A stretch of 64,000 bases of DNA from the NCBI GenBank assembly GCA_947488435.1, contig CANKZG010000001.1:2658308-2722307 (forward strand), in the 5' to 3' direction. How positions within the stretch are numbered: the first letter of the stretch is position 1; each line of letters starts with the position of its first letter. Source of the stretch: an uncultured Flavobacteriaceae bacterium. Lineage in GTDB: Bacteria; Bacteroidota; Bacteroidia; Flavobacteriales; Flavobacteriaceae. Both the position numbers and the translations under genes were made by a program. Below are positions 10,547-37,472 of this stretch, piece after piece. The notes beneath the pieces are model-generated. The model worked only from the letters and a program-made list of their open reading frames with translations, searched no databases and was not told the origin of the DNA.

Positions 10547-11731
10547 TTAAGATCTCTTTTTGGCCAAACTATATAGTCCAAAAAGGGGACCTATAACTAA
10601 AGGGAGAAACAAAAAACTAGGGTTTATTTTATCAACCAGATAGGAGAGGAGTTGAATGCTTAGAATACTGATAGCAAAACCAATACTGTTAACTAGAGTT
10701 AGTGCTGTTCCTTTAATTTCTGCCGGAGCCGCTCCAGCAACCAATGTTGAAAATTGAGCAGAATCTGTGATCACCGCCATTCCCCAGACAATAAAAATTA
10801 TTAAAAATAAAAATGAGGGAAGCTGAAAAATTAAAGGCGAAAACAGACAGCAGATACCAGAAATAAGTAAGGCATAAAAACTTATTTTATAGCTTCCCCA
10901 TTTAAGCGATAATAGACCACCAATAGCACATGCAATGCTTCCTACGGCAATGATTGCAAAAGTCCACCATTCTATTATTAGATTACTCTGGTGTTGCGTA
11001 TTATATGCTTTAAGTGCAAAAGGTACGAAAGCCCAAAAAGCATAGAGTTCCCACATATGTCCAAAATACCCAAAAGCTGCTTTGCGAAAGGCAGCGTGCT
11101 TAAATACCGTAATACCTGTTTTTAAGTTTAATTTCTTACTAGCTTTTCTAAAGGGACCATCCGGAATGGTGATACATAATAGTATACCACCTGCAGCCGC
11201 TAATAAAGAAGTAACTTTAATTACGATATCGTAATTATCACCCCAATGCATACTTTTTACCAAATAGGGAAAAGCTTTTCCTAGAACCAGCGCTCCCACC
11301 AGCAAACCTAAGGCTTTACCTAATCCTTTCTCGTAATAATCTGCCGCAATCTTCATCCCAACCGGATAAATACCTGCAAGAAAGAAACCAGTCCCAAAAC
11401 GCGTAATGAGAAGTAAAGACGGAGAAATGTTATGGATTAGCATGCCCCAATTACAAATGGCTGCAAAGATGGCACTTATCATAAATACCCTAGATGGTGA
11501 AAAACGATCTGCTATCATAAGGAGTGCAAACGTAAAGGTCCCTATAATGAAACCAAATTGTACGGAAGAAAGCACATAGCCAACAATTTCAATACCCAAA
11601 CCGGTTTGCAACATCAACTCGTCTACAATAGCATTACCAGCAAACCAAACGCTGGTGCCCGCGAATTGGGCGAGTATAATAATAGGTAGAATATGCGTTT
11701 TTGGTTTAATAATTAGTATGTTAGATGGCAC
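10547..11731 (-). CDS. MFS family transporter
   Basis: A 394-residue protein with about twelve hydrophobic segments and the MFS loop features FTFALLMIADRFSPSRVFMISA (loop 2-3) and TRFGTGFFLAGIYPVGMKIAADYYEKGLGKALG (helices 4-5), resembling the cyanate/nitrate-type branch of the superfamily. It lies in the inner membrane and probably carries a small solute; the substrate cannot be read from the sequence. The length is normal. It sits in the leftward gene run between DUF1684 and the TMEM175-like gene. Confidence 0.85.
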   Translation of the reverse strand: MPSNILIIKPKTHILPIIILAQFAGTSVWFAGNAIVDELMLQTGLGIEIVGYVLSSVQFGFIIGTFTFALLMIADRFSPSRVFMISAIFAAICNWGMLIHNISPSLLLITRFGTGFFLAGIYPVGMKIAADYYEKGLGKALGLLVGALVLGKAFPYLVKSMHWGDNYDIVIKVTSLLAAAGGILLCITIPDGPFRKASKKLNLKTGITVFKHAAFRKAAFGYFGHMWELYAFWAFVPFALKAYNTQHQSNLIIEWWTFAIIAVGSIACAIGGLLSLKWGSYKISFYALLISGICCLFSPLIFQLPSFLFLIIFIVWGMAVITDSAQFSTLVAGAAPAEIKGTALTLVNSIGFAISILSIQLLSYLVDKINPSFLFLPLVIGPLFGLYSLAKKRS

Positions 11732-21806: not shown

Positions 21807-23618
21807 CTAGTCAAAGGTATACCCAGAATCTGCAGCTACTTTATCCGCAATTTGTGTGCGTAAAGCCACCACATTAGGGTGATTTGTATATTTTGTAAAA
21901 CGTTTTAGCCCCATTAGCATCATGCGTTGTTCGTCGCCTTCTGCAAAGGAAACTATAGCTTCTTTTCCTTTTTGTAGAATGATGTCTACCGCATTGTAAA
22001 GATAGAGACGCGACATGGCAATTTGCGTTGCCTGTGTATCCTCTCCATAACGCTTGGCATTCTTTTCTGTTCGTAAGATAGTGGATTCTGCCATATAAAT
22101 TTCAATAAGAATGTCAGAAGCTGCCATTAAAAGTTGTTGATGACCTTCTAAATCAGGTCCAAATTTCTGCACAGCACTTCCTGCTACCATTAAAAGCACT
22201 TTTTTTAGACGTGCTATTAGATCTTTTTCCTCTGCAAATAATACTGAAAAGTCTGGAGCATCAAAAGAAGGAATACCCATTAGTTCTTCCCCAACTGCCG
22301 TTGCAGGCCCCAATAGATCTACATGTCCTTTCAACGCTTTTTTAATTAGCATTCCAACAGCTAACATTCTATTAATCTCATTGGTACCTTCGTAGATACG
22401 TGCAATTCTAGAATCTCTCCAAGCGGATTCCATTGGCGTATCTGCACTAAAGCCCATTCCTCCAAAAATTTGAATTCCTTCATCTGTGGTACTCTGGCAA
22501 TCTTCGGAAACCGCAACTTTTAAAATAGAACATTCGATGGCATATTCTTCTACACCTTTTAATTCCGCTTCCTGATGCGAATTTCCTGCAGCTTCTCGCA
22601 AAGCAATACGATCTTCAATATTCTTGGCGGCGCGATAACTAGCCGATTCTCCGGCATAGGCATTAGTAGCCATGGTAGCTATCTTCGCTTTTATCGCTCC
22701 AAAATTAATAATAGGAGTTTTAAACTGTAAACGTTCGTTAGCATATTTTACGGCTTCTCCAATTACTCTTCGCTGTGCATCCAAACAAGCAGCAGCCAAT
22801 TTAATACGTCCTACATTAAGTGCGTTCATGGCGATTTTAAAACCGTTTCCACGCTCAGAAAGCATGTTTTCTACAGGAACCTTAGTCTCATTAAAAAATA
22901 CCTGACGGGTAGAGGAGGAGTGTATACCTAACTTTTTTTCCTCATCTCCTAAGGTAATGCCATTGGAAGGATCGTTTTCTACAATAAACCCAGTAATATT
23001 TTTATCATCTTCAATACGGGCAAATACAATAAATAAATTGCAAAAACCTGCATTTGAAATCCACATTTTCTGTCCAGAAATGCTGTAATGTTTTCCATCA
23101 TCAGATAATACCGCTTTGGTTTTTCCAGAATTGGCATCCGATCCGGCACCAGGTTCCGTGAGGCAATAAGCACCAAACCATTCTCCGGTGGCTAATTTAG
23201 GGACGTATTTCTGTTTTTGCTCTTCATTTCCATATAGGGTTATCGGCATGGTTCCGATTCCGGTATGCGCTCCAAAAGCAGTACTAAATGAACCTGTTGC
23301 TCCCGAGATATAATCGCATACCAACATGGTGGAAACAAACCCCATTCCTAAACCTCCATAGGCTTCAGGAACTGCAATACCCAAAAGCCCAAGCTCTCCA
23401 GCATGGCGCATGGTTTCTTCAGTATAACCGTAATCTTTGCTTTCAAAGCGTTCCCAATGCGCCCATAGTTCTCTATCTACAAACTCTTTGGTACTTTCAC
23501 GCATCATTTTTTGCTCTTCCGATAAGTCTTCGAGCGTAAATACATCTTCACACTGCGTTTCTTTAACTAAAAACTGTCCTCCACGTAGTAGGTCATTTTG
23601 TAGGGTCTCTGTACTCAT
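21807..23618 (-). CDS. fadE: Acyl-CoA dehydrogenase, FadE type
   Basis: A 603-residue flavoprotein of beta-oxidation, catalysing the first oxidation of acyl-CoA to trans-2-enoyl-CoA. Motifs: YCLTEPGAGSDANSGKTKAV (flavin and substrate loop), QKMWISNAGFCNLFIVFAR, GRIKLAAACLDAQRRVIGEA, QIFGGMGFSADTPMESAWRDSRIARIYEGTNEINRML with the catalytic-region Glu. The extra 150 C-terminal residues match the long form found in Bacillus FadE and in Bacteroidota. It is the last gene of the operon, 92 bases after the thiolase gene, with a terminator behind it. Confidence 0.95.
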   Translation of the reverse strand: MSTETLQNDLLRGGQFLVKETQCEDVFTLEDLSEEQKMMRESTKEFVDRELWAHWERFESKDYGYTEETMRHAGELGLLGIAVPEAYGGLGMGFVSTMLVCDYISGATGSFSTAFGAHTGIGTMPITLYGNEEQKQKYVPKLATGEWFGAYCLTEPGAGSDANSGKTKAVLSDDGKHYSISGQKMWISNAGFCNLFIVFARIEDDKNITGFIVENDPSNGITLGDEEKKLGIHSSSTRQVFFNETKVPVENMLSERGNGFKIAMNALNVGRIKLAAACLDAQRRVIGEAVKYANERLQFKTPIINFGAIKAKIATMATNAYAGESASYRAAKNIEDRIALREAAGNSHQEAELKGVEEYAIECSILKVAVSEDCQSTTDEGIQIFGGMGFSADTPMESAWRDSRIARIYEGTNEINRMLAVGMLIKKALKGHVDLLGPATAVGEELMGIPSFDAPDFSVLFAEEKDLIARLKKVLLMVAGSAVQKFGPDLEGHQQLLMAASDILIEIYMAESTILRTEKNAKRYGEDTQATQIAMSRLYLYNAVDIILQKGKEAIVSFAEGDEQRMMLMGLKRFTKYTNHPNVVALRTQIADKVAADSGYTFD

Positions 23619-23710: not shown

Positions 23711-24904
23711 CTAGTTTAAAAACTCATAAATACCTGCCGCTCCTTGGCCTGTACCAACGCACATGGTTACCATTCCATATTTTCCTTGCATATTGCGCTT
23801 GCGCATCTCATCAAAGAGCTGCACGGAAAGTTTGGCTCCTGTACATCCCAATGGATGTCCTAAAGAAATGGCACCACCATTTACGTTTACGATATCGCCG
23901 TTTAATCCCACTTCTCTGATTACCGCAAGAGATTGTGAGGCAAAGGCTTCATTTAACTCTATCAACTCAACATCATCTTGTTTTAGACCTGCCTGCTTCA
24001 ATGCTTTTGGAATTGCTTTTACAGGACCAATACCCATAATACGGGGTTCCACACCTGCTGCGGCATAATTTACCAAACGTGCTACAGGTTCAAGGTTTAG
24101 TTCTTTAACCATTTCCTCGCTCATAACCATCACAAAAGCTGCCCCATCACTCATTTGTGATGAATTTCCAGCAGTAACGCTACCTCCAGCAGCAAAAACC
24201 GGACGTAATTTATTTAACACAGCTACTGAGGTACCTTTACGAGGTCCTTCATCTTTAGTAACGGTATATTTTTTGCTCGCTTTTTTTCCATTTTCATCTA
24301 CATAGGTTTGCGTTACCTCGATCGGAACAATTTGATCTTGAAAACGATCTTCGGCTTGTGCCTTTAAAGCTTTCATATGCGAGTTATAGGCAAACTCATC
24401 CTGATCTTCTCTAGATACCTTAAACTGATTTGCTACAGCTTCTGCTGTATTTCCCATTCCCCAGTAATAATCTTCATTCCCTGCCTTTACGATTGCATCA
24501 TAATTCAATTCTGGTTTAAATCCAGTCATGGGAACTGCACTCATGCTTTCTGCTCCTCCCGCGATAATACAATCGGCCATTCCCGCTTGTATTTTAGCAG
24601 TGGCCATTCCAATAGTTTCTATTCCTGAAGAACAAAAACGATTTACCGTAACACCGGGAACATCAACAATATCGAGTCCCATTAAAGATATTAAGCGTGC
24701 CATATTAAGGCCTTGCGAACCTTCAGGCATTGCATTACCTACAATAACGTCATCAATACGTTTGGGATCTAAATTTGGAAGCTCCTTCATCATATGTTTG
24801 ATGGTTTCTGCTGCCAGTTCATCTGTTCTTTTAAATCGAAACACCCCCTTTGGAGCCTTTCCTACGGCGGTTCTATATCCTTTAACTATATATGCTGTTT
24901 TCAT
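23711..24904 (-). CDS. fadA: Acetyl-CoA acyltransferase (3-ketoacyl-CoA thiolase)
   Basis: A 397-residue thiolase. The acyl-accepting Cys is in VNRFCSSGIETIG; LIELNEAFASQSLAV and NVNGGAISLGHPLGCTGAKL contain the Asn/His catalytic region; MVTMCVGTGQGAAGIYEF near the C-terminus contains the second catalytic Cys. It cleaves 3-ketoacyl-CoA with CoA to release acetyl-CoA in beta-oxidation. It lies 28 bases after fadN and 92 before fadE, the order seen in the Bacillus fadNAE operon. All catalytic residues are present. Confidence 0.95.
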   Translation of the reverse strand: MKTAYIVKGYRTAVGKAPKGVFRFKRTDELAAETIKHMMKELPNLDPKRIDDVIVGNAMPEGSQGLNMARLISLMGLDIVDVPGVTVNRFCSSGIETIGMATAKIQAGMADCIIAGGAESMSAVPMTGFKPELNYDAIVKAGNEDYYWGMGNTAEAVANQFKVSREDQDEFAYNSHMKALKAQAEDRFQDQIVPIEVTQTYVDENGKKASKKYTVTKDEGPRKGTSVAVLNKLRPVFAAGGSVTAGNSSQMSDGAAFVMVMSEEMVKELNLEPVARLVNYAAAGVEPRIMGIGPVKAIPKALKQAGLKQDDVELIELNEAFASQSLAVIREVGLNGDIVNVNGGAISLGHPLGCTGAKLSVQLFDEMRKRNMQGKYGMVTMCVGTGQGAAGIYEFLN

Positions 24905-24932: not shown

Positions 24933-27338
24933 CTAATTCCTTAATGGTTTTCCAGTCTTCAACATATGTTGAATACGCTCTAAAGTCTTTTTTTCTGTAC
25001 ATAAAGACAAAAAGGCTTCCCGTTCTAAATCCAATAGATAGCGTTCACTTACTTTAGTTTCCTCAGAAAGATCTCCCCCAGCCATAACATAGGCTAATTT
25101 ATTGGCTATTTTATGATCATGGGCACTGATGTAGTTACTAGCTTCCATTGCGTCTGTACCTACCATAAACATTCCAAGCGCTTGTTTCCCTAGAACTTTT
25201 ACATCTTTGCGCTTAGGCGGTTGCGTGTAACCGGCTTCTGCCATAAGCTTAGCATGTGCTTTTGCGGTAGCTATCTGTCGATCTTTATTTACTACAACAA
25301 TATCTTTTCCCTTTTGAAGCAGACCAAGATCATAAGCTTCGTATGCAGAAGTAGATACTTTTGCCATTCCTATGGTGAGGAAATATTCTTGCAATACATT
25401 AAGTTCTACATCATCTTTGCGGAAGGTATCCGAAGCACGCATGGCCATTTCTTTAGAACCTCCACCACCTGGAATAACACCTACGCCAAATTCTACAAGT
25501 CCCATATAGGTTTCTGCTGCAGCAACTACTTTATCTGCATGAAGCGATAGTTCGCAACCACCTCCCAGCGTCATCCCATGAGGAGCTGAAACAGTAGGAA
25601 TAGCAGAATAACGCATACGCATCATAGTGTCCTGAAACATTTTTATGGCCATATTAAGCTCATCGTATTCCTGCTCCACGGCCATCATAAAAATCATCCC
25701 AATATTTGCTCCCACAGAAAAATTGGCCGCCTGATTTCCTACAACCAAACCTTGAAAATCCTTTTCTGCTAGATCAAGACCTTTATTTAAACCAGCCAAG
25801 ACATCTCCGCCGATCGTATTCATTTTGGATTGAAATTCTACATTGAGAATACCATCACCTAAATCTTCAATAACTACACCGCTGTTTTTAAATACTTCCG
25901 AAGATTTTCTAATGTTGTCTAGGATAATAAAAGCATCCTGCCCCGGAATCTTCTCTGAAGCTTTTTTAGGAATATCATAAAAGTAAGAAGCTCCATCTTT
26001 TACGCTATAAAAGGAAGTTACTCCAGCTGTTGCCATTTCGCCAACCCATTTCGCAGGGGTTAACCCTTCGGCTTCTATTAAAGCTAGACCTTCTTTAAAA
26101 CCAATAGCATCCCATATTTGAAAGGGACCGTGTTCCCATCCAAAACCAGCCTTCATAGCATCATCTATTTTATAAAGCTCATCCGTAATTTCGGGAATAC
26201 GATGTGATACATAAGCAAACAAGGCCGCAAAGCTTTTACGATAAAATTCACCTGCTTTATCTTTTCCAGCAACTAGAATTTTAAAGCGATCAATAACATT
26301 ATCCACCGTTTTTGTCAACTCTAAAGTCGCAAATTTTGCACGTTTCTTAGAACGATACTCCAGTGTATTCAAATCCAAGGATAGAATCTCACTTTTACCC
26401 CCTTCCCCTCTTACTTTTTTATAAAAACCTTGTCCAGATTTACTGCCCAACCATTTGTTTTCCATCATGGTTTTAATAAAATCCGGCAATTGAAATAACT
26501 CGTGGCGCTCGTCATCCTTACAATTTTCGGCTATTCCATTGGCCACATGAACCAATGTATCCAAACCAACAACATCTACAGTTCTAAAGGTAGCAGACTT
26601 TGGTCTTCCAATTAGCGGTCCTGTAAGTTTATCTACCTCTTCAATAGTTAAATCCATAGCTTTAACTGCGTGGAAAAGACTCTGAATACTAAAAATTCCA
26701 ATTCTATTCCCGATAAAAGCGGGAGTATCTTTAGCAACTACTGATGTTTTACCTAAAAATTGTTCTCCATAACCATTTAAAAAATCCAAAACTGCAGGAT
26801 CGGTTTTAGGTCCTGGTATAATTTCAAATAATTTTAAGTAACGAGCAGGATTAAAAAAGTGTGTTCCACAAAAATGTTTTTGGAAATCGTCACTTCTTCC
26901 TTCACTCATGAATTTTATGGGAATTCCTGATGTGTTCGAGGTGATTAATGTTCCTGGTGTTCTGTGTTTTTCTAAACTCTCAAACACTTTTTGTTTTATG
27001 TCTAAACGTTCTACCACTACTTCGATAATCCAATCGACCTTGGCTACCTTTGCAATATCATCTTCCAAATTTCCGGTGGTAATGCGCTGGGCAAAGTTTT
27101 TATGATAAATCGGAGAAGGTTTTGATTTTAGCGCAGCAGTAAGGGAATCGTTTACCAAACGATTACGTACCAATTTATGCTCTAAGGTAAGTCCCTTCGC
27201 CTTTTCCTTATCATTAAGTTCGCGGGGAACAATATCTAAAAGTAGTACTTCTACTCCAATATTAGCGAAATGACAGGCAATACCGCTACCCATTATTCCA
27301 GAGCCTATTACAGCTACACTTTTTATATGCTTGTTCAT
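24933..27338 (-). CDS. fadN: 3-hydroxyacyl-CoA dehydrogenase / enoyl-CoA hydratase, FadN type
   Basis: An 801-residue bifunctional enzyme. The NAD-binding dehydrogenase domain comes first (VAVIGSGIMGSGIACHFANI; SNTSGIPIKFMSE; GTHFFNPARYLKLFEIIPG), then two HADH C-terminal-like domains to about residue 430, then a crotonase/enoyl-hydratase domain (LVVGNQAANFSVGANIGMIF; PHGMTLGGGCELSLHAD; GVGVIPGGGGSKEMAMR). This order, dehydrogenase before hydratase, is that of Bacillus FadN and opposite to E. coli FadB. It carries out hydration and the second oxidation of beta-oxidation. It starts 18 bases after marR and 28 before fadA. Confidence 0.95.
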   Translation of the reverse strand: MNKHIKSVAVIGSGIMGSGIACHFANIGVEVLLLDIVPRELNDKEKAKGLTLEHKLVRNRLVNDSLTAALKSKPSPIYHKNFAQRITTGNLEDDIAKVAKVDWIIEVVVERLDIKQKVFESLEKHRTPGTLITSNTSGIPIKFMSEGRSDDFQKHFCGTHFFNPARYLKLFEIIPGPKTDPAVLDFLNGYGEQFLGKTSVVAKDTPAFIGNRIGIFSIQSLFHAVKAMDLTIEEVDKLTGPLIGRPKSATFRTVDVVGLDTLVHVANGIAENCKDDERHELFQLPDFIKTMMENKWLGSKSGQGFYKKVRGEGGKSEILSLDLNTLEYRSKKRAKFATLELTKTVDNVIDRFKILVAGKDKAGEFYRKSFAALFAYVSHRIPEITDELYKIDDAMKAGFGWEHGPFQIWDAIGFKEGLALIEAEGLTPAKWVGEMATAGVTSFYSVKDGASYFYDIPKKASEKIPGQDAFIILDNIRKSSEVFKNSGVVIEDLGDGILNVEFQSKMNTIGGDVLAGLNKGLDLAEKDFQGLVVGNQAANFSVGANIGMIFMMAVEQEYDELNMAIKMFQDTMMRMRYSAIPTVSAPHGMTLGGGCELSLHADKVVAAAETYMGLVEFGVGVIPGGGGSKEMAMRASDTFRKDDVELNVLQEYFLTIGMAKVSTSAYEAYDLGLLQKGKDIVVVNKDRQIATAKAHAKLMAEAGYTQPPKRKDVKVLGKQALGMFMVGTDAMEASNYISAHDHKIANKLAYVMAGGDLSEETKVSERYLLDLEREAFLSLCTEKKTLERIQHMLKTGKPLRN

Positions 27339-27356: not shown

Positions 27357-27806
27357 TTAATTGTTGTGTTCTTTTATGTAGACTTTCTTTTCTACAATTA
27401 ATTTATTTATAGTATCAATAACTTCAAAAAAGTTTTGAAGCTTATCATCAGATACATTTTCTTTTACTACCTCATTGAAACGAAGCACTACCTCTTTGGA
27501 GATTTCTCTTTTTTTGAGTCCTAAAGCTGTTAGATGAATAATTACGCCACGGCCATCGTTAGGATTAGGTCTTCGTTCTATGAATCCTTTTTCTTCGATA
27601 CTTTTAAGTATTCTGGAAAGACTTGTGGCTTCCATTCCCATTTTTGGACCGAGTGCGGTAGAGGCCGTACCTGTTTTGGGATCGATACTTAATAAGGTAA
27701 ATCCCAAGGCCATAGTCAATTCAAAATGCTTTGCTTCTTCATTATACATCCGAGTTACGGCTTGCCATGTGGCTCGAAGTGCATAGTCAATTGTGCTGTC
27801 TCTCAT
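27357..27806 (-). CDS. MarR family transcriptional regulator, probable repressor of the fad operon
   Basis: A 149-residue winged-helix regulator. The recognition-helix region is MGMEATSLSRILKSIEEKGFIERRPNPNDGRG followed by VIIHLTALGLKKREI: the MarR wing with the conserved Asp/Arg of the DxRG motif. It is the first gene of the marR-fadN-fadA-fadE operon (18-base gap). A 30-base perfect palindrome at 27834-27863, at its own promoter, is the expected operator, so it probably represses its own operon until an acyl-CoA or fatty-acid ligand binds; ligand and mode are inferred. The length is typical. Confidence 0.92.
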   Translation of the reverse strand: MRDSTIDYALRATWQAVTRMYNEEAKHFELTMALGFTLLSIDPKTGTASTALGPKMGMEATSLSRILKSIEEKGFIERRPNPNDGRGVIIHLTALGLKKREISKEVVLRFNEVVKENVSDDKLQNFFEVIDTINKLIVEKKVYIKEHNN

Positions 27807-27823
27807 AAAAACTGAATTCGTAC

Positions 27824-27831
27824 CAAATATA
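27824..27831 (-). promoter_or_regulatory. Bacteroidota -7 element of the marR-fad promoter
   Basis: On the - strand the sequence is TATATTTG, matching TAnnTTTG, 18 bases before the marR start. The triplet at the -33 position (19 bases further) reads ATG rather than TTG; that spacer is filled by the palindrome at 27834-27863. Confidence 0.65.
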
Positions 27832-27833
27832 GT

Positions 27834-27863
27834 AAAATTTATTATGCATGCATAATAAATTTT
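27834..27863. promoter_or_regulatory. 30-base perfect palindrome, probable MarR operator
   Basis: The two 15-base half-sites mirror each other exactly about the centre between 27848 and 27849; the core is TTATTATGCATGCATAATAA. It starts 3 bases upstream of the -7 element and spans the spacer and the -33 region, so a bound dimer would block RNA polymerase. I saw no second copy with this core elsewhere in non-coding DNA of the window. Confidence 0.75.
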
Positions 27864-27924: not shown

Positions 27925-29715
27925 TTAATGTCCATAAATACTATCGTACAGTGCTTTGTATTTCTCTTTAATAATTTTTCGTTTTAGCTTAAGCGTCGGG
28001 GTTACGTGACCTGCTTCAATGCTCCAAACATCTGGGGTTAATCGGAATTGTTTTACTTTTTCCCATTTAGCAAAATTGGTATTAGCATCATCCACTTCTT
28101 CTTGAAAACGGGCCAGTACCTTTTCATCTGTAACCATGGTTTCGGGGTCACCCACTTCCAAATTATGACGTGCGGCCCATTCGGCTACAAATTCAAAATT
28201 GGGTTGAATGAGTGCCGCGGGCATTTTTTCACCTTCACCAACAACCATAATTTGTTCAATAAAGCGCGATTGCTTAAAACGATTTTCCAACAACTGTGGC
28301 GCCACATATTTCCCCCCGGAAGTTTTAAACATTTCCTTTTTACGATCTGTAATTTTTAGAAAACCTTCCTCGTCAATCACACCAATATCACCAGTATGAA
28401 AATAACCATCAACAAGTACTTCTGCTGTTTTATCAGGATCTTTATAATATCCCATCATTACCTGTGGCCCTTTTGCACAGATTTCGCCATCTTCCGCAAT
28501 TTTAACTTCCGTACGTTCCAATAATTTTCCTACGGTCCCAATTTTAAAACCATTATTACGAACGTCATTTACAGATAGTACAGGAGAGGTTTCAGTAAGT
28601 CCATAACCTTCCATAACGTTCATTTCTGCAGCATTAAAAATACGCGCTAAACGGGGTTGGAGGGCAGCACTACCGGATGAAATTGAGCACAAATTCCCGC
28701 CCAAACCTTCTTTCCATTTACTAAAAATAAGTTTCCGTGCCAAGGCCAATTTTTTCTCGTACCACCAGCCATTTTGACCATATGGTTCATACTTTAAACC
28801 CAGCTCAACAGCCCAAAAGAAGAGTTTCTTTTTTATTCCAGTAAGCTCTGTTCCTTTAGCAATTATTTTATCATATACTTTTTCTAAGAGCCTTGGGACT
28901 GCCGTCATCACCTGTGGCTTTACTTCTTTAAGATTATCGCTGATTTTATCCATAGATTCCGCAAAATATACCGACACCCCATTGTATTGATACAAATACA
29001 TCATCATACGTTCATAAATATGGCAAACCGGTAAAAAACTAAGGGCTCGTAATTGGTCTCCTTCTATAAAGAGACGTTTGGAACTTTCTATGGCATTACT
29101 TACCACATTATTGTGGGATAACATCACTCCTTTAGGGCGCCCAGTGGTACCTGAAGTATAAATAATAGTAGCTAAATCTTCTGGTTTTACACTCGCTTTC
29201 AATTGCTCTACCTCTTCTTGGTTGCTTGTATCGGCACCGAGCTCTAAAACTTCGATCCAATTACTGCAATCTTCCAATTGATCAAAAGAGTATACCTTTT
29301 TTAAACTGGGAACGTTATCCTGAATCGCTTTTACTTTTTCAAACACATCGGTACAGGAAACAAAACAGTGGGTAGATTCCGAATGGTTGAGCACGTACTC
29401 ATAATCTTCCTGCGAAATAGTGGGGTAAATAGGTACATTTTGTGCACCTATTTGCAAGATGCCAATATCCATAATATTCCATTCCGTACGATTGGTCATC
29501 GCAATAAGGGCAATTTTATCGTTAGGTTTTACACCTAGCCGTAATAAACCACGACTAATGGCATTGGCCTTATCTACGTATTCCTGACTCGAAGTTGCCA
29601 CCCATTTACCATCGTATTTGGTAACAAGTGCATCCTTTTGGTTAAATTTTTCCAGTTGATAATAGGGGAAATCGAATAATCGAGTGACTTCTTGCATCGT
29701 GTTATTTTTCGTCAT
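27925..29715 (-). CDS. fadD: Long-chain fatty acid-CoA ligase (AMP-forming)
   Basis: A 596-residue adenylate-forming enzyme that activates fatty acids to acyl-CoA with ATP. Motifs: TIIYTSGTTGRPKGVMLSHN (P-loop), MEGYGLTETSPVLSVN, YFHTGDIGVIDEEGFLKITD and RKKEMFKTSGGKYVAPQ, with the catalytic C-terminal Lys region in LKLKRKIIKEKY. It is the long-chain, FadD15/FAA-like form. It lies upstream of the marR-fad operon in the same orientation (118-base gap that holds the palindrome), and no clear terminator separates them. It supplies the substrate for the fad enzymes. Confidence 0.94.
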   Translation of the reverse strand: MTKNNTMQEVTRLFDFPYYQLEKFNQKDALVTKYDGKWVATSSQEYVDKANAISRGLLRLGVKPNDKIALIAMTNRTEWNIMDIGILQIGAQNVPIYPTISQEDYEYVLNHSESTHCFVSCTDVFEKVKAIQDNVPSLKKVYSFDQLEDCSNWIEVLELGADTSNQEEVEQLKASVKPEDLATIIYTSGTTGRPKGVMLSHNNVVSNAIESSKRLFIEGDQLRALSFLPVCHIYERMMMYLYQYNGVSVYFAESMDKISDNLKEVKPQVMTAVPRLLEKVYDKIIAKGTELTGIKKKLFFWAVELGLKYEPYGQNGWWYEKKLALARKLIFSKWKEGLGGNLCSISSGSAALQPRLARIFNAAEMNVMEGYGLTETSPVLSVNDVRNNGFKIGTVGKLLERTEVKIAEDGEICAKGPQVMMGYYKDPDKTAEVLVDGYFHTGDIGVIDEEGFLKITDRKKEMFKTSGGKYVAPQLLENRFKQSRFIEQIMVVGEGEKMPAALIQPNFEFVAEWAARHNLEVGDPETMVTDEKVLARFQEEVDDANTNFAKWEKVKQFRLTPDVWSIEAGHVTPTLKLKRKIIKEKYKALYDSIYGH

Positions 29716-36260: not shown

Positions 36261-37472
36261 TTATTTTCGTTCTAACAGCGCCATATAGAAACCGTCGAAT
36301 CCACTTTGCGAAGCAAAGATTTTGTTTTCTTTTGTCAAGCTAAAATCTTTACCTTCTTCTGAAGTTAAAAAGGCAGTTACTTGGTCGCTATTTTCCTGAG
36401 GAAGTATGGAGCAGGTAGCGTATACGAGTTTTCCACCAACTTTTACCATTTTGCTATAACTGCGAAGGATTTCCTGTTGCGTCTGTATAATTTTGTCTAG
36501 AAACTCGGGTTGTAACTTCCATTTGCTATCCGGATTTCTTCGCAAGACACCCAGACCGGTACAGGGAGCATCTATTAATACACGATCGGCACTGCCGTAT
36601 AGTTTTTTAATCACCTTTGTTGAGGTAATTTCTCGCGGTTCAATATTATGTGCTCCATTTCTTCTTGCGCGACGTTTCAACTCTTTTAGTTTACTTCCGT
36701 AGATATCCATAGCAATAAGTTGCCCTTTGTTTTCCATTAAGGCTGCTAAGTGCAGTGTTTTACCACCTGCACCAGCACAGGTATCAACTACTCGTTGCCC
36801 TGGTTTTACATCCAAATACGCTGCTACTAATTGTGAGCTGGCATCTTGTACTTCGAAGTTCCCATTTTTAAAAGCTTCAGTAACAAAAACGTTGGCACGT
36901 TCTGGCAGGATAAGCGCACTGGGATATCCTTTTATAGGATCTACAACGATTCCTTCTTCCAGGAGCATTTTTTGTAACGCTTCTTTGCTTGTTTTCAAGG
37001 TATTGGTGCGTAAAATAACATCAGCTTTTTTATTCAAAGCTGTCAATTCTTTCGACCAAAATTCTTCTCCTAATGCGGTAGCGAATAGAGCATCGATCCA
37101 ATCCGGAATTGCTTCCCTAAATTTTCTGATTTTAGAAAGTTCATCAAACTTTCCTTTAATTCGACGTTCTGGTGTGGGTTCTATTTGTTTCCAATCGGGA
37201 AGTGGAATACCTTTTAGTACTGCCCATACCGCCCAAATCCGAAATAAATCTGGTCTACTGTAAGGTGCTTTAACACCAGAAATTTCTGTGTACAGCCTTT
37301 TATAACGTACAATTTCATAAGTAGTTTCCGCTATAAAGCCGCGATCTCTAGCTCCCCAGCGTTTATCAAATTTTAATACTTTTTGTACTACTTTATCGGC
37401 ATATTCCCCTTCATTAAATATTAAATGAAGCGCATCAATAACGGCAAATACTAAATTTCTGTGTAATCGCAT
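36261..37472 (-). CDS. RsmB/NOP-type rRNA (cytosine-5) methyltransferase
   Basis: A 403-residue SAM-dependent methyltransferase. The SAM-binding motif is VVDTCAGAGGKTLHLAALM; the two catalytic cysteines are in LIDAPCTGLGVLRRNPDSKW (motif IV) and LVYATCSILPQEN (motif VI), with the binding/proline-rich and NPDSKW features of the RsmB/Sun class. The N-terminal 90 residues are an NusB-like helical domain. The likely role is m5C formation in 16S rRNA, or a related RNA. It converges on the amidohydrolase gene (5-base gap) and diverges from the next lipoprotein gene. Confidence 0.92.
   Translation of the reverse strand: MRLHRNLVFAVIDALHLIFNEGEYADKVVQKVLKFDKRWGARDRGFIAETTYEIVRYKRLYTEISGVKAPYSRPDLFRIWAVWAVLKGIPLPDWKQIEPTPERRIKGKFDELSKIRKFREAIPDWIDALFATALGEEFWSKELTALNKKADVILRTNTLKTSKEALQKMLLEEGIVVDPIKGYPSALILPERANVFVTEAFKNGNFEVQDASSQLVAAYLDVKPGQRVVDTCAGAGGKTLHLAALMENKGQLIAMDIYGSKLKELKRRARRNGAHNIEPREITSTKVIKKLYGSADRVLIDAPCTGLGVLRRNPDSKWKLQPEFLDKIIQTQQEILRSYSKMVKVGGKLVYATCSILPQENSDQVTAFLTSEEGKDFSLTKENKIFASQSGFDGFYMALLERK

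Follow-up and report, generated by a model that had tools for sequence, protein, structure and literature searches.

MarR-family regulators bind as dimers that place their recognition helices in consecutive major grooves of palindromic sites; those of catabolic pathways mostly repress and are often released by the CoA esters of the pathway, and autoregulation through a palindrome in the regulator's own promoter is the usual arrangement (PMC5487221). FabT of streptococci and enterococci is a MarR protein of fatty-acid metabolism whose gene heads the operon under its control (PMC5487221; PMC13046290). In Proteobacteria, fatty-acid degradation is controlled by FadR (GntR family) and by PsrA and FadP (TetR family), each a single regulator placed over fad genes and, in several lineages, also over fadL and synthesis genes, with lineage-specific expansion of the regulon (PMC5343134). 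Our literature search, which took in few subscription journals and did not extend to RegPrecise, found no named β-oxidation regulator in Bacteroidota and no earlier description of the motif reported here or of a flavobacterial MarR fatty-acid regulon, and the regulon appears to be undescribed so far. We present evidence that in Flavobacteriaceae and their relatives a MarR protein very probably represses its own β-oxidation operon together with a fatty-acid-utilisation regulon.

The window, the whole stretch of 64,000 nucleotides that was analysed, contains at 27834-27863 the sequence AAAATTTATTATGCATGCATAATAAATTTT, which is its own reverse complement and hence the perfect 30-bp palindrome that the original prediction had described. 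No other perfect palindrome in the window is as long, and the maximum in 60 windows shuffled under a dinucleotide model was 22 bp. The runner-up, TAATTACGATATCGTAATTA at 11218-11237, has 20 bp and is at chance level. All four genes that had been placed downstream do follow on the minus strand: marR, encoding a regulator of 149 residues and the proposed operator binder (27357-27806); a fadN-like gene for a 3-hydroxyacyl-CoA dehydrogenase/enoyl-CoA hydratase (24933-27338; assigned by Pfam and NCBIfam); a fadA-like thiolase gene (23711-24904; Pfam); and fadE, encoding an acyl-CoA dehydrogenase (21807-23618; NCBIfam NF058590, above its cut-off). To these we add a fadD-like acyl-CoA synthetase gene that the original prediction had omitted, located directly upstream of the palindrome on the same strand (27925-29715; Pfam AMP-binding domain and synteny).

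The −7 promoter element of the marR operon, TATATTTG (TAnnTTTG; 27824-27831, minus strand), is recognised from the sequence, from 80 orthologous loci and from the published consensus (PMC6847099). In the numbering used for F. johnsoniae the −7 box extends from −12 to −5 (PMC6847099), which puts the predicted start near 27819 and leaves marR a leader of about 13 nt. On this scale the palindrome occupies about −15 to −44 and the 20-bp core within it (27839-27858) about −20 to −39, so that it overlaps both the spacer and the −33 region, as had been claimed. In this group any −33 motif is less clear than the AT-rich motifs centred at −18 and −28 (PMC6847099), so what the operator covers is the promoter stretch expected to matter.

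Absence of the palindrome upstream of orthologous operons had been named as a finding that would count against it. Instead, the operator is present at all of the 80 closest marR orthologues (72-79% identical; Muricauda, Maribacter, Arenibacter, Cellulophaga, Eudoraea and others), no more than 80 bp from the start codon, with ATGCATGCAT exact in 77 and changed by one base in the remaining three; only one further match, a weak one, occurs in the 587 kb of these 80 loci. TAnnTTTG adjoins the operator in 80/80 loci and lies 17-18 bp from the operator centre in 77 of them (17 bp in 69 and 18 bp in eight). Gene order is also retained, with fadN downstream in 79/80, fadA downstream in 75/80 (some loci end at contig ends) and fadD upstream in 79/80; a matrix scan of the 80 loci found no separate operator for the fadD-like gene. 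A phylum-wide draw supplied 29 more Flavobacteriaceae orthologues, and the 28 of these whose upstream region is intact all have the site. The variant ATnnTATGCATGCATAGTAT is the form used in one large genus of the Flavobacteriaceae. Among 20 MarR homologues from other families (36-48% identity), TATGC/GCATA is intact in 13, one base off in three and absent in four, three of which belong to one family. The homologues of family f3 (L194-L196, 36-40% identity) lack the motif; either their operator is altered or they form a separate subfamily.

The site had been put forward as an unusually complete operator candidate. An operator is indeed what the comparisons point to, at a smaller size than the 30 bp proposed. 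The core TTATTATGCATGCATAATAA (27839-27858), with half-sites TTAYTATGC and GCATARTAA, was delimited from 80 + 28 marR sites, 51 etfB sites and the further copies in the source genome. Positions ±1.5 to ±5.5 (TATGC/GCATA) are invariant across the marR and etfB sites, the two central bases vary (AT, GT, AC or GC), and at ±6.5 one side is mostly T or C and the other A or G. Symmetric co-variation is evident at ±9.5, where 65 of 73 distinct sites are paired against 51 expected under independence, and perhaps at ±10.5. Because pairing equals expectation from ±13.5 outwards, the selected operator appears to be about 20 bp, TTAYTATGC-RY-GCATARTAA, and we rejected a 30-bp operator: selection does not maintain the symmetry of the outermost A/T bases. 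At the family level the downstream TTTT is conserved and the upstream arm is not, and the ten additional bases of the window's copy are mostly A/T-rich promoter surroundings. Its perfection over 30 bp is thus partly luck and not unusual in the group, in which perfect palindromes at the marR sites of relatives range from 12 to 38 bp.

We carried out the suggested genome-wide search of the source genome by pattern matching. The pattern WNNTATGCRTGCATANNW gave six sites, compared with 0-1 for the reversed-pattern control. They lie before marR-fad; before etfB, divergent from pdhB; between a 4HBT thioesterase gene and a divergent gene for a FabK/NMO-like flavoprotein; before a GDSL-type esterase gene; before a FabH-like synthase gene; and before a TonB-dependent receptor gene beside glmS. 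The targets are mostly fatty-acid genes, and with five of six sites at marR-fad or lipid-related genes the motif serves as the searchable signature of a fatty-acid regulon that had been anticipated. At etfB, 26-29 bp separate the operator centre (near −40) from the −7 box, about one helical turn more than at marR, an offset that fits a protein required to sit in phase with the polymerase.

Several copies of the operator have neighbours of their own interest. The etfB operator of the source genome (L005 1501-1520) has on its other side the divergent pdhB, which encodes pyruvate dehydrogenase E1 beta, and might affect both genes. The copy between the TonB-dependent receptor gene and glmS is found in two genera (L296 3211-3230 in the source genome; L292 2013-2032), which suggests that this receptor is lipid-related. 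The FabK/NMO-like flavoprotein (L298 2861-4446 in the source genome; L372-L397) is among the commonest further targets and is paired with a 4HBT thioesterase in the source genome and in G032, where a site is also found at a probable 2,4-dienoyl-CoA reductase gene (fadH-like; L294, identified by eye from the start of the sequence). Four genera encode a small exported protein of about 166 residues beside the operator, with the flavoprotein gene adjacent or close by (L271 1535-2035; L273 2331-2834; L274 2117-2620; L280 2127-2627), and the L271 copy has no NCBIfam match. In G039 the operator is found 66 bp upstream of a gene for pyruvate carboxylase (L277 2073-2092), through which anaplerosis could possibly be tied to fatty-acid use.

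In part of the Flavobacteriaceae the MarR operator also occurs between rpmF and fabH-accBC. A weaker form of the motif, GTATTATGCATGCATATAAT, lies about 170-183 bp before fabH in 13/30 genomes (L300-L329) and is absent from the source genome (L328); in G014 (L300, about 1320-1340) it directly follows the stop codon of rpmF and precedes a hairpin resembling a terminator. That one MarR protein keeps the breakdown and synthesis of fatty acids in balance, as a MarR-based equivalent of E. coli FadR with an independent origin in Bacteroidota, is a tentative idea that we consider rather doubtful.

The regulator has a MarR winged-helix domain (PF01047, E = 9e-11, 42 bits, cut-off 24.6). Its AlphaFold2 model (pLDDT 82) has the MarR fold, in which dimerisation helices surround a winged helix-turn-helix, and matches SlyA, MarR and MepR with Z of 15-16 over 134-141 residues, and the top structural matches are the SlyA-DNA complex, MarR, the MepR-DNA complex and the CouR-coumaroyl-CoA complex (Z 15-16). 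The putative palindromic operator in the promoter of the regulator's own gene, in 80/80 orthologues, is what is expected of the family. We infer that the adjacent MarR binds it directly as a homodimer, with one recognition helix on each TTAYTATGC half-site, and represses rather than activates. Bound over −20 to −39 of a sigma-A promoter, the dimer would keep RNA polymerase off, and marR-fadN-fadA-fadE would be repressed by its own MarR. The same dimer would act at unlinked promoters, those of etfBA (whose product accepts electrons from acyl-CoA dehydrogenases), the FabK/NMO-like flavoprotein, the 4HBT thioesterase, and the FadL/GDSL-esterase and FabH-like genes. The likely inducer would be long-chain acyl-CoA made by FadD, releasing MarR from the operator, a proposal that follows from the operon content and from the precedent of catabolic MarR proteins (PMC5487221).

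The same protein on the same site could instead activate, or could be a repressor that acyl-ACP or acyl-CoA strengthens rather than releases. An activator would fit the etfB promoter too, given the operator centre near −40 there; acyl-ACP enhances repression by the MarR protein FabT (PMC5487221); and some genera have a site far upstream of fabH. However, the marR operator at −20 to −39 is within the polymerase footprint, and substrate induction is sensible for a degradation operon. In the fish pathogen F. psychrophilum, mucus and plasma of the host, which are lipid sources, strongly induce the β-oxidation genes (PMC9723704, in passages that name no regulator), a response that a switch of this type would give. 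We therefore regard activation or FabT-like corepression as unlikely and favour acyl-CoA-released repression by the adjacent MarR.

Distribution among genomes bears on which protein uses the operator. We trained a matrix on marR sites alone and applied it to other genes in 60 Flavobacteriaceae, one per genus. A site at etfB (score >8; best shuffled score 6.5) was found in 51/55 MarR-positive and 0/4 MarR-negative genomes, four MarR-positive genomes lacking it, and sites with at most two mismatches in 47/55 and 0/5, respectively, comparisons in which Fisher values are only indicative, the MarR-negative genomes being few, related and mostly small or incomplete. A site at the FabK/NMO-like flavoprotein gene was found in 20/25 MarR-positive genomes, the other five lacking a good one, and at fadL in 9/11 MarR-positive and 0/1 MarR-negative genomes. 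An unrelated control gene (RsmB-like; window 36261-37472) had a site in 0/30 (best score −10.7). One genome counted as MarR-negative, G015, has the flavoprotein site, and because it is 84% complete its MarR was probably missed. Outside the Flavobacteriaceae, all genomes of f2 (five), f10 (two) and f7 (one) have an intact etfB site; f8 and f3 lack it, f9 has at most a degenerate form, and an intact core was found at etfB in 0/10 MarR-negative genomes. Family f8 retains the marR site. Because it is kept in families without the etfB site, the marR site is the most lasting, as would be expected where autoregulation persists and the other targets change.

These data weigh against a different regulator, for example a global lipid or redox factor encoded elsewhere, that would bind the operator and have the adjacent marR merely as one of its targets. 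In its favour, binding by MarR is itself deduced from context and the motif is also present at unlinked genes. Such a factor would, however, leave unexplained that the marR promoter site outlasts the one at etfB and that etfB sites, and sites with at most two mismatches, occur with MarR and in none of the few genomes scored there as lacking it, while a palindrome in its own promoter is the ordinary autoregulatory arrangement for a MarR protein (PMC5487221). We consider a different regulator improbable, and less credible than a different mode of action of MarR.

The palindrome might also act as RNA, as a terminator of fadD or a leader structure, since the end of fadD is just upstream and the minus-strand RNA can form a hairpin of 13 pairs that outdoes almost every shuffled version. 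But the palindrome lies upstream of the predicted start, what would be the loop, ATGC, shows the same degree of conservation as the stem, and the distance from motif to promoter is fixed at two different genes. An intrinsic terminator would have a G+C-rich hairpin followed by a T-run; here the stem is A-T-rich, the terminator scan makes no call, and the same motif occurs between the divergent etfB and pdhB. We judge an RNA hairpin very improbable. A chance product of AT-rich sequence is ruled out for practical purposes: although the 118-bp intergenic region is AT-rich and 28 bp was reached in two of 20,000 Markov versions of it, 30 bp was reached in none, and the site is conserved in all 80 orthologues and at unlinked genes.

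Repression by the adjacent MarR thus remains the preferred reading, and now that a regulator, an operator of 20 bp and a set of targets have been proposed, fatty-acid control in Bacteroidota becomes directly testable. The motif can serve regulon annotation across many genomes, and it suggests a place in lipid metabolism for little-studied genes, such as those for the FabK/NMO-like flavoprotein and the TonB receptor beside glmS.

The operator is real and well conserved, and its mechanism is ordinary, of the known MarR type. Its nearest parallels are CouR and FerC, catabolic MarR repressors induced by CoA thioesters, which likewise have a palindromic operator and an adjacent catabolic operon for CoA-linked substrates. 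CouR and the flavobacterial MarR share the MarR fold, as judged from the predicted model, but are distant in sequence (E = 0.006); CouR and FerC, moreover, respond to aromatic-acid substrates in Proteobacteria and Actinobacteria, whereas here the ligand would be an acyl-CoA. FabT represses synthesis with acyl-ACP as corepressor and is the first gene of a fab operon, whereas this MarR heads the β-oxidation operon marR-fadN-fadA-fadE and is not FabT. FadR, PsrA and FadP do the same job in a different phylum with unrelated DNA-binding families; Pfam matches only MarR and related winged-helix families in the present protein, which is thus neither a GntR nor a TetR regulator. The regulon does a job of the FadR/PsrA/FadP type with a protein of the FabT-like family.
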